Shown here one piece after another: positions 32,307 through 62,804 of a stretch of 64,000 nucleotides of DNA. This stretch comes from Halobacteriales archaeon YIM A00010. Lineage in GTDB: Archaea > Halobacteriota > Halobacteria > Halobacteriales > Haloarculaceae. The stretch spans positions 1,550,001 through 1,614,000 of the forward strand of contig JAKCFJ010000001.1 in assembly GCA_025041175.1 (NCBI GenBank). The letters are read 5' to 3'. Each line of letters opens with the position of its first letter. Within the stretch, counting starts at the first letter, position 1. The position numbers and the translations under genes are program-made. Below the pieces are notes generated by a model, which was given only the letters and a program-made list of their open reading frames with translations, had not been told where the DNA came from and did no database searches.

Positions 32307-32808
32307 CATCCTCCCACGACTTCAGTCGTGGGCTTCCCACGCCCGCACCGCATTGCGCTGAGTTGGGTGGTTGCAGGTTTGCGGTCCACCACCACGGTCG
32401 AAGTCAGAATCTCCGACTGCAGTCCTGTGAAGGCACGGGTGGACTGCTGGCAGTGCCACACTACCGGTACTCCTATCCTCACCCCGTTCTGGTCCGGCGT
32501 TTCGGTTCCGTCACCAGAACGCGAGCGTTCTGATTGGCTCACGAGAGCTTGCTCTCGTGAACGTCGGAGTCGAACGGAGGCATCCGTGGACTCGGAGTTA
32601 CTTTTTGTACTGCCAAGTGGCCCGACGCTTGTTGTTTCGTTCCCACGAAGGGTACAGCTCGTTTTCCGAGCTGGGCGGACACTCGAACCGCCAGTTTCGG
32701 GCCGTCAACGACCGGACTCTGTGAGAATCCGGCTCGACAGTTGAGAGACGTACGGAAGGAATATCAACATGTCGGATTCATCCCACGGCTGAAGCCGTGG
32801 GTTTTCTC
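32307..32808. mobile_element. IS200/IS605-like non-autonomous element (PATE-like)
   Basis: About 0.5 kb bounded by subterminal hairpins: CCCACGACT-TC-AGTCGTGGG at 32313-32332 and CCCACGGCT-GA-AGCCGTGGG at 32782-32801. Imperfect palindromes of this form are the ends recognised by single-strand IS200/IS605 transposases, and the flanking GACATCCTCCC and GGGTTTTCTCC match ends of haloarchaeal tnpB elements. No transposase or TnpB frame survives inside; a 138-codon frame at 32328-32744 has no family match. Small elements with such ends (palindrome-associated transposable elements) are known from other haloarchaea. Confidence 0.72.
32515..32559. repeat. Double-hairpin unit inside the IS200/IS605-like element
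   Basis: CAGAACGC-GA-GCGTTCTG (32515-32532), a 7-nt spacer ATTGGCT, then CACGAGAGC-TT-GCTCTCGTG (32540-32559). Both stems are perfect. The same two-stem layout with 7-nt spacing recurs in the tnpB relic at 62.3-62.7 kb. Confidence 0.75.
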
Positions 32809-50029: not shown

Positions 50030-50074
50030 GCGAGAGCTTCGCTCTCGCCAAGTGAGTGGTGGACGGAGTCCACC
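50030..50074. repeat. Double-hairpin unit after gch3
   Basis: GCGAGAGC-TTC-GCTCTCGC (50030-50048) and GGTGGAC-GGA-GTCCACC (50058-50074) are separated by 9 nt. Layout is like the double-hairpin units elsewhere in the window, but the spacer is 2 nt longer. A GCGCAAAAAAGGTGG tail follows at about 50079. It could act as a transcription end or RNA-stability signal for gch3. Confidence 0.6.
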
Positions 50075-62225: not shown

Positions 62226-62296
62226 TCATCCGAACGATCGCGGCCGGGCCGTATGAGTGTTGCCGATTATCGGTTATCTGTCATTTCTTCGCATCG

Positions 62297-62342
62297 AAGG
62301 CGCGAGCGCCTTTCGTGATGACGAGAGTGCAAAGCTCTCTCG
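62297..62342. repeat. Double-hairpin unit 1 in the tnpB relic
   Basis: AAGGCGC-GA-GCGCCTT (62297-62312) and an imperfect GAGAGTGC-AAA-GCTCTCTC stem. If the first stem is extended by the flanking CG pairs, the spacer is 7 nt, TGATGAC (62316-62322). The unit abuts the first surviving tnpB codons. Confidence 0.6.
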
Positions 62343-62377
62343 AACCACTACGAGGTGCACGCCGACTACAACGCGGT

Positions 62378-62419
62378 CGCCGGATGGCATCCGGCGGGCA
62401 ACCCGAAATCCTCGATTTC
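62378..62419. repeat. Double-hairpin unit 2, inserted within tnpB codons
   Basis: CGCCGGAT-GGC-ATCCGGCG (62378-62396) and GAAATC-CTC-GATTTC (62405-62419), about 7 nt apart. The 52-nt block 62376-62427 interrupts the codons for YNA and AKN and shifts the frame, so it is an insertion into a once continuous gene. Confidence 0.72.
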
Positions 62420-62499
62420 TGGTGACGGCGAAGAACATCGCGGTAAAGTACGCAAAGAATCTCCACCGGTTGCACACGTCCTCCGGTGGAGGGGTGCTC

Positions 62500-62542
62500 A
62501 AAAATCGAAGATTTTTGGCATACCACTGAGCTTCGCTCAGTG
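62500..62542. repeat. Double-hairpin unit 3 in the tnpB relic
   Basis: AAAAATC-GAA-GATTTTT (62500-62516), spacer GGCATAC (7 nt), CACTGAGC-TTC-GCTCAGTG (62524-62542). An outer GTGCTC (62494-62499)/GAGCAC (62542-62547) pair closes the unit, so the whole could fold as a three-way junction. Confidence 0.75.
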
Positions 62543-62649
62543 AGCACACCCGTAGACGTGCCCTTAAACAGCGGGTTGCTGACTATCGAAGGGCCAGCCG
62601 ACGTTTCGGTTGGGTAAGAAGGTACGAGACCACGCTGAAAGCCCCTTCA

Positions 62650-62690
62650 CCAGAACCCACGGTTCTGGTTAGCAGCCAGACTGCGTCTGG
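62650..62690. repeat. Double-hairpin unit 4 after tnpB
   Basis: CCAGAACC-CAC-GGTTCTGG (62650-62668), spacer TTAGCAG (7 nt), CCAGAC-TGC-GTCTGG (62676-62690). It falls in the region corresponding to the 3' non-coding end of the element. Confidence 0.72.
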
Positions 62691-62804
62691 CGACCCCCTC
62701 ACCGACCGAGGCCGAAGGCCAAAGGAGTAGGGAGGGGTTGTTTACCTGCATCACTCACGCAAAGATTGCCGTGGTTTTTATACACACCATCACTCAGGGA
62801 CGGT

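Follow-up and report, generated by a model that had tools for sequence, protein, structure and literature searches.

The tnpB relic and its double hairpins

Close to one end of the window, by which we mean the whole 64,000-nucleotide stretch that was analysed, lies a relic of an IS200/IS605-type tnpB gene that lacks about 1.1 kb of its 5' part. Its surviving pieces, all on the forward strand, comprise the codons YEVHADYNA of the RuvC III region (62349-62376), the segment AKNIAVKYAKNLHRLHTSSGGG (62426-62494) and the C-terminus PVDVPLNSGLLTIEGPADVSVG with the stop codon (62547-62617), which is 92% identical to the paralog L042 over 97 nt; the first two pieces were recognized by BLAST to the paralogous loci L041, L042 and L044. 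Two parts of the transposon 3' region follow on the same strand, one at 62618-62646 that aligns with L041 and one at 62694-62745 that runs to GAGTAGGGAGGGGTTGTTTAC and is common to L041, L042 and L054. When the region is compared by BLAST with the host genome and its congeners, the matches stop at the borders of four units, each of which contains two short hairpins.

Unit 1 (62288-62347, forward strand, with an approximate left boundary) reads CGAAGGCGC/GCGCCTTTCG, TGATGA, CGAGAG..CTCTCG and AACCA, has a one-base bulge and abuts the surviving end of tnpB. It is a match to our covariance model R2 (C1:1612290-1612349, 56.9 bits) and belongs to family C, which is also found at other places. Unit 2 (62377-62425, reverse strand) is a family A element with TC..GA ends (covariance model R1, minus strand, 36.0 bits), the net insert of which amounts to 52 nt, namely 49 nt plus a 3-bp direct repeat, CCG, at a site that is empty in L044. 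Unit 3 (62495-62546, forward strand) is a family E element in which an outer stem, TGCTCA..TGAGCA, surrounds two 8-bp hairpins; its site is empty in L041, L042 and L044 and filled in the tnpB of a congener, L043. Unit 4 (62647-62693, forward strand), again of family A with the layout TC[9 bp]TAGCA[7 bp]GA (R1, 66.4 bits), is inserted after GAAAGCCCCT in the transposon 3' region at a site that is empty in L041. Folded as single-stranded DNA, units 1 to 4 gave z-scores of -2.1, -3.1, -4.68 and -6.07, unit 1 being the weakest. The TnpB frame in the window is broken, as unit 2 adds 3n+1 nt and unit 3 brings in an in-frame TGA.

Much of a preliminary description of this DNA, made from its letters alone, holds up. 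The hairpins lie within 62281-62745 as it had placed them, and the double-hairpin plan is indeed shared: three units with perfect stems of at least 6 bp occur in the 465-bp region, a number reached in none of 2000 Markov shuffles. Against the empty paralog L044, the proposed 52-nt insertion of unit 2 between the codons YNA and AKN is exact, and folding bears out the outer stem, GTGCTC/GAGCAC, that it saw in unit 3. Its near-constant spacer of about 7 nt corresponds to a linker whose commonest length, from one perfect stem to the next, is 5-6 nt and comes to about 7 nt once the closing bases are counted. Other points need amendment. Insertion is borne out for units 2, 3 and 4, which have clean empty sites, but insertion into the frame is not borne out for unit 1. 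Stems had been called unrelated between units, which fails for units 2 and 4, members of one family in opposite orientations with the R1 scores given above. Likewise, of the proposal that architecture is kept and sequence is not, the first half stands, but stem bases, linkers and ends are partly conserved and define families.

Elsewhere in the window a fifth element, intergenic and of A/D type, lies at 32511-32560 on the forward strand (CCG-TC[CAGAACGC..]ATTGGC[TCACGAGAGC..]; R1, 27.7 bits), and another double-hairpin-like pair (GCGAGAGCTTCGCTCTCGC .. GGTGGACGGAGTCCACC) is seen in an intergenic gap at 50030-50074. The paralogous tnpB element at L041 carries a different double hairpin in its 3' region (L041:2120-2190; family G, ..GACCATTCGA..), where the relic in the window has a short GGCCGAAGGCC stem. 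We also considered whether an element of the unit 1 type in L041 lies at the tnpB transposon's left border; this was rejected, the sequence there being more like the 3' end of another transposon.

Families, abundance and distribution

Elements of this kind are 45-60 bp long and share a general plan: a pair of short hairpins, each with a perfect stem of 7-10 bp and a triloop, is connected by a linker of 5-8 nt that is specific to the family. Sorted by the linker, which is conserved within families and differs between them, they fall into family A, CATC[hp]TAGCA[hp]GAC; family C, GTCGTY[CGA..]TGATGA[CGA..]; family D, [ACNAGA..]TAGCCA[ACCA..]GAC; family E, TGCTCA[..]GCATRC[..]TGAGCA; and family F, [GCAAATC..]TGGATAC[GGGAAATC..]TTGA. 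Families A and D have the layout 5'-TC[hairpin]-linker-[hairpin]GA-3'. In A, C, D and F the elements terminate in short complementary sequences, 5'-T(C/G)..GA-3', and in E the ends are 5'-TG..CA-3'. Stems are mostly of 7, 9 or 10 bp with triloops, so that the length of a copy changes in set increments.

A layout scan (stems of at least 7 bp, loops of 2-4 nt, spacer of 4-8 nt) of 800 kb of the host genome, sampled as 40 stretches of 20 kb from its 5.97 Mb in seven contigs, recovered 33 double hairpins, whereas no single one of 20 third-order Markov shuffles had more than one (mean about 0.3, an excess of about 100-fold). Only two of the 33 lie in called genes, though 64% of the sample was called coding by a crude codon-usage caller. 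In a small sample there was no preference for convergent gene ends (5/5/5) and no pattern in the orientation to neighbouring genes.

With model R1, family A was found at no fewer than 99 non-redundant places in the host genome, grouped in 82 loci of which 13 are small arrays. Within the host's order it is present in at least 77 of 146 genomes and at least 44 of 57 genera, and family C, by model R2, in at least 128 of the 146 genomes and at least 52 of the 57 genera; the E-values of both models are rough and these counts are lower bounds. Exact matches to the A core occur in Halorubrum and other haloarchaeal genera, and among the matches listed for 197 genomes of the phylum none of family A fell outside the host's order.

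Precise insertion and direct repeats

By joining the flanks of the double hairpins and aligning them to all loci we obtained pairs of filled and empty sites. The comparison of filled and empty tnpB genes that the preliminary description had called for yielded empty sites in the paralogs L041, L042 and L044, as detailed above. Further clean pairs place a family F insertion at GGAAG^CCCC (55 nt net), a family C insertion at CAGG^CGTTG (56 nt) and a family E insertion at GAGACG^CACC (51 nt), none with a repeat. Families A and D are flanked by direct repeats of 2-3 bp, mostly ending in CG or CA: CGG (L006), ACG (L008), CG (L002), CCG (unit 2) and ACG (L028/L041), and an A element that lies within a C linker in a related genus has a CA repeat. 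Repeat length thus varies, from 2-3 in A/D to 0 in the clean C, E and F pairs; these values come from about ten joins that could be read in alignments of paralogs that have diverged.

The clearest case is an A copy inside an intact acyl-CoA ligase gene of the host (L152:1310-2938, from C2:436188; PF00501, E 2.7e-87), where a 57-nt insert is in frame and adds 19 residues. The site is empty in four congeners, with the exact join (GGTGACACC/GGCGACACC) readable in two: the host has GGAGACA-[TC..GA]-CACC as against GGTGACACC in the congener G005, the empty join is also present in G004, and G001 and G006 carry more diverged orthologs that likewise have no insert. Another A copy occupies a site in a short-chain dehydrogenase gene common to the host and one congener; its loop is TCC in one species and the reverse complement, GGA, in the other, and the arms of the second hairpin differ. 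Both nesting and tandem arrays were seen, the tandem copies being separated by CA. Judged from these sequence comparisons the elements are evidently mobile, with precise insertion into both coding and non-coding DNA, and the proposal of mobile inserted elements is upheld by the exact filled and empty sites as well as by the covarying stems described below.

The A copy within a C linker belongs to a repeated, non-coding and hairpin-rich intergenic element of about 400 bp in a related, Halorubrum-like genus (L255-L267), which has conserved blocks such as GGGACTCAAAGGGGCAGCCGCGAGGA and gave no Rfam match.

Covariation of stems and loops

The stems of 60 A places, free of redundancy, comprise 808 cells, of which 780 hold Watson-Crick pairs, 10 hold G-T and 18 are mismatched. 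Relative to the commonest pair, changes affect both sides in 172 cells and one side in 26, where the two-sided number is inflated by the kinship of copies and by the model's own structure and is not a count of events. Covariation exceeds simple controls for both A and C, in sets chosen for good stems, and each of the two hairpins has 29 different arms among the 60 places. The triloops are predominantly of two kinds (31 TNC and 35 GNA among 89, or 74%), and either kind can be found on the same arm; in a set of 171 triloops, about 160 have C-G as the closing pair. DNA mini-hairpins are known to be exceptionally stable when a GNA loop is closed by a G-C pair (PMC4686876). As G-T pairs are nearly absent, we infer that pairing takes place in DNA rather than RNA.

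Mode of movement and alternative explanations

In the explanation that we favour, with a probability of roughly 0.7, each unit is a copy from one of several related families (A, C, D, E, F and others) of mobile double hairpins that are non-autonomous and scattered across haloarchaeal genomes; in the window one C element adjoins the tnpB relic, and two A elements and one E element have inserted into it. Such elements may move as folded DNA, recognized by their shape together with a few end and linker bases, and a recombinase or transposase supplied in trans would make a short staggered cut. Arm identity might be kept because each move demands a perfect fold; alternatively, one arm may be copied from the other by fold-back, or whole hairpins may be swapped between copies. 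We found no mobiliser or autonomous copy with the same ends in about 1 Mb searched, and two candidates that were inspected proved spurious. A bolder version, which we put forward tentatively and would not be surprised to see fail, is that these are an archaeal mobile class selected for DNA shape, in which both arms are rewritten together by fold-back copying or loop inversion and an undescribed enzyme other than that of IS200/IS605 recognizes the fold and the end bases.

One possible identity of the mover within this explanation is a DDE-type transposase acting on double-stranded DNA. The elements would then be minimal MITEs with palindromic terminal inverted repeats (TCRCCAGA in A, TCGTYCGA in C and TGCTCAC in E) and a target duplication of 2-3 bp. 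Their complementary ends and the short direct repeats of A and D are in keeping with this, and the CA between tandem copies is as expected from repeated insertion at CA. Against it, no full-length element shares these ends in the 1 Mb searched, the cleanest C, E and F pairs show no duplication, and A loci are not enriched near DDE_Tnp_1 genes (1 of 82 within 1.5 kb, with 1.04 expected). We regard a MITE origin as doubtful, though it retains appreciable weight.

A less probable alternative, in our estimate, is that the elements derive from IS200/IS605 ends, in the manner of PATEs or REPINs, and are moved in single-stranded form by a Y1 (HUH) TnpA that recognizes the hairpins. What lends it some appeal is the strong clustering in tnpB elements, for which the preliminary description had proposed a test: a tnpB is present no more than 1.5 kb away from 19 of the 82 A loci, as against 1.45 expected and with none of 2000 permutations as high, an enrichment that is overstated wherever a single insertion is common to related tnpB copies, and 11 of 24 C places are likewise near tnpB. 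Because the same site is filled in related tnpB genes, several of the copies there are inherited rather than independent. Two hairpins also figure in the clover model of REPINs (PMC3116915), and terminal-only PATEs of 52 bp are known in Haloquadratum (PMC3119063). However, IS605-type elements make no target duplication (PMC3119063), but A and D joins have 2-3 bp repeats; the absence of a repeat in the clean C, E and F pairs would, on that feature alone, fit an IS200/IS605 derivative. Across 146 genomes the presence of A does not track that of Y1_Tnp (46/31/32/37; Fisher p = 0.13), there being no Y1_Tnp match in 31 of 77 A-positive genomes and 9 of 19 A-rich ones, some of these genomes being incomplete. 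The host has four Y1 transposases to its 99 or more A places, and 63 of the 82 A loci are away from tnpB. Both A and C occur outside tnpB contexts as well. The direct repeats and the independence of Y1_Tnp lend no support to an IS200-type mover, nor to the earlier suggestion that IS200/IS605 machinery perhaps acts on the units, and the co-occurrence test gave no support to its TnpA as an obligatory mobiliser.

From the clustering of A at tnpB and not at DDE_Tnp_1, together with that of C, it follows that the mobile double hairpins either favour tnpB elements as targets or find a refuge in them; DDE transposases, taken as general neutral targets, showed no enrichment of A. SMR-A of Haloquadratum similarly prefers IS605-type transposons (PMC3119063). 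In the host genome 33 TnpB C-terminal domain matches stand against the four Y1 transposases, so most of its IS200/IS605 elements are tnpB-only or relics.

It is quite unlikely that the units, instead of being mobile DNA, act as structured RNAs or as hairpins with a regulatory role (terminators, parts of omega-RNAs or box C/D-like RNAs). The mostly extragenic location would suit such a role, as would the presence of some copies in a transposon 3' region, and family C has a linker, TGATGA, reminiscent of the box C motif; but an Rfam search of the region and ten loci returned only tRNAs, the near absence of G-T pairs and of any preference for convergent gene ends is not what this role would lead one to expect, and exact empty sites are seen both in coding sequence and in the 3' region of the transposon. 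Chance, or ordinary GC-rich coding palindromes of the tnpB relic that underlies the region, is already refuted by the excess over shuffles and the paralogs without inserts, and with it go both outcomes that the preliminary description had named as fatal to its reading, namely palindromes that are normal coding sequence of tnpB and a layout at random frequency.

Comparison with known elements

The closest known counterparts of the double hairpins are the REP dimers of bacteria, especially the CGTC-tagged ones, and REPINs, the SMR and PATE elements of Haloquadratum and the double-hairpin elements of mitochondria. Our search of the open full-text literature found no published report of the elements described here.

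Like them, bacterial REP dimers and REPINs are numerous, short, mostly extragenic hairpin repeats that form dimers with the tags outside (HH), vary in their stems by compensatory changes and sometimes insert in genes, and CGTC-tagged REPs have no known transposase either (PMC3733652, PMC3116915). Family A reads C(A/G)TC-hairpin-hairpin-GA. The terminal tag of CGTC REPs, outside the stem, is CGTC (or TGTC, CCTC); in A the bases before the first hairpin are most commonly CATC, with CGTC or GGTC in some copies, and the CR before TC is derived from the target. Unlike the stems of CGTC REPs, which are of 8-9 bp and start with AT, with a loop of 4-5 nt and a CCA tail, those of our elements start with RCC, have triloops and lack the tail, and the spacer is 5-8 nt as against 20-100 bp in most bacterial dimers. 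With REPINs they share the high copy number and paired extragenic hairpins (at least 99 A places; 31 of the 33 sampled double hairpins outside called genes), but the GTAG tag is absent, the ends being TC..GA, TG..CA or TT..GA, and no RAYT association was found, in line with the independence of A and Y1_Tnp in the 146 genomes. REP dimers and REPINs are moreover bacterial and the present elements archaeal, with a direct repeat of 2-3 bp read from empty sites.

Double hairpins of Allomyces mitochondria, the GC42 clusters of yeast and the palindromic repeats of Volvox resemble them in their length of about 42-50 nt, their short palindromes (paired in Allomyces), their nested and merged copies, their occurrence in both orientations and their short loops of reverse-complementary types, and for GC42 there is a putative target duplication of two nucleotides, AG (PMC2800124, PMC4478555, PMC2670323). 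These repeats reside in eukaryotic organelle DNA and no sequence relationship is known; in our elements several linker families coexist and the arms covary widely.

SMR-A, SMR-B and the PATEs of Haloquadratum are likewise haloarchaeal and transposase-free with no known mobiliser, and they include terminal-only PATEs of 52 bp (PMC3119063). SMR-A differs in being about 110 bp long with inverted terminal repeats, in its near-identical copies and in making no target duplication, with three types in one species (PMC3119063). By that description it is set apart from our elements, which measure 45-60 bp, have highly divergent stems and fall into many families distributed over most genera of the order.

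Rickettsia palindromic elements are palindromic inserts of about 150 bp in protein genes, typically in frame. The in-frame insert of 19 codons in the acyl-CoA ligase gene is one comparable case, but most copies here are extragenic, and those inspected within tnpB either throw the gene out of frame or end it with a stop. A 474-aa open frame at L015 had prompted the idea of similar in-frame inserts in tnpB, which we rejected: neither of the two inserts keeps the frame, what is translated from one to the other is not TnpB sequence, and a stop codon within the second terminates the TnpB frame. We thus set the double hairpins apart from REPINs, CGTC-tagged REPs, SMR-A and Rickettsia palindromic elements, from each of which they differ in at least one defining feature.

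Descriptions of REP and REPIN repeats come mainly from bacterial genomes, and those of double-hairpin elements from organelles, which leaves a gap that the haloarchaeal families would fill. Their many families, rewritten stems and exact empty sites make both the movement of folded DNA and the maintenance of arm identity testable. The elements interrupt genes and, at least once, have extended a protein by an inserted peptide; they also seed arrays of palindromes and accumulate in tnpB elements, and are thus of relevance to annotation and to the fate of TnpB and omega-RNA genes.

A further dispersed family in the host genome has a hairpin with a covarying tip, TTTTTTCCGYTC-GGGTGnnC NNN GnnCACCC-TCRCGCAAAAAA, with copies at L074:12550, L075:14747, L078:13931, L079:12129 and L082:688, four of the five of which have T6 and A6 flanks in a terminator-like or MITE-like arrangement.
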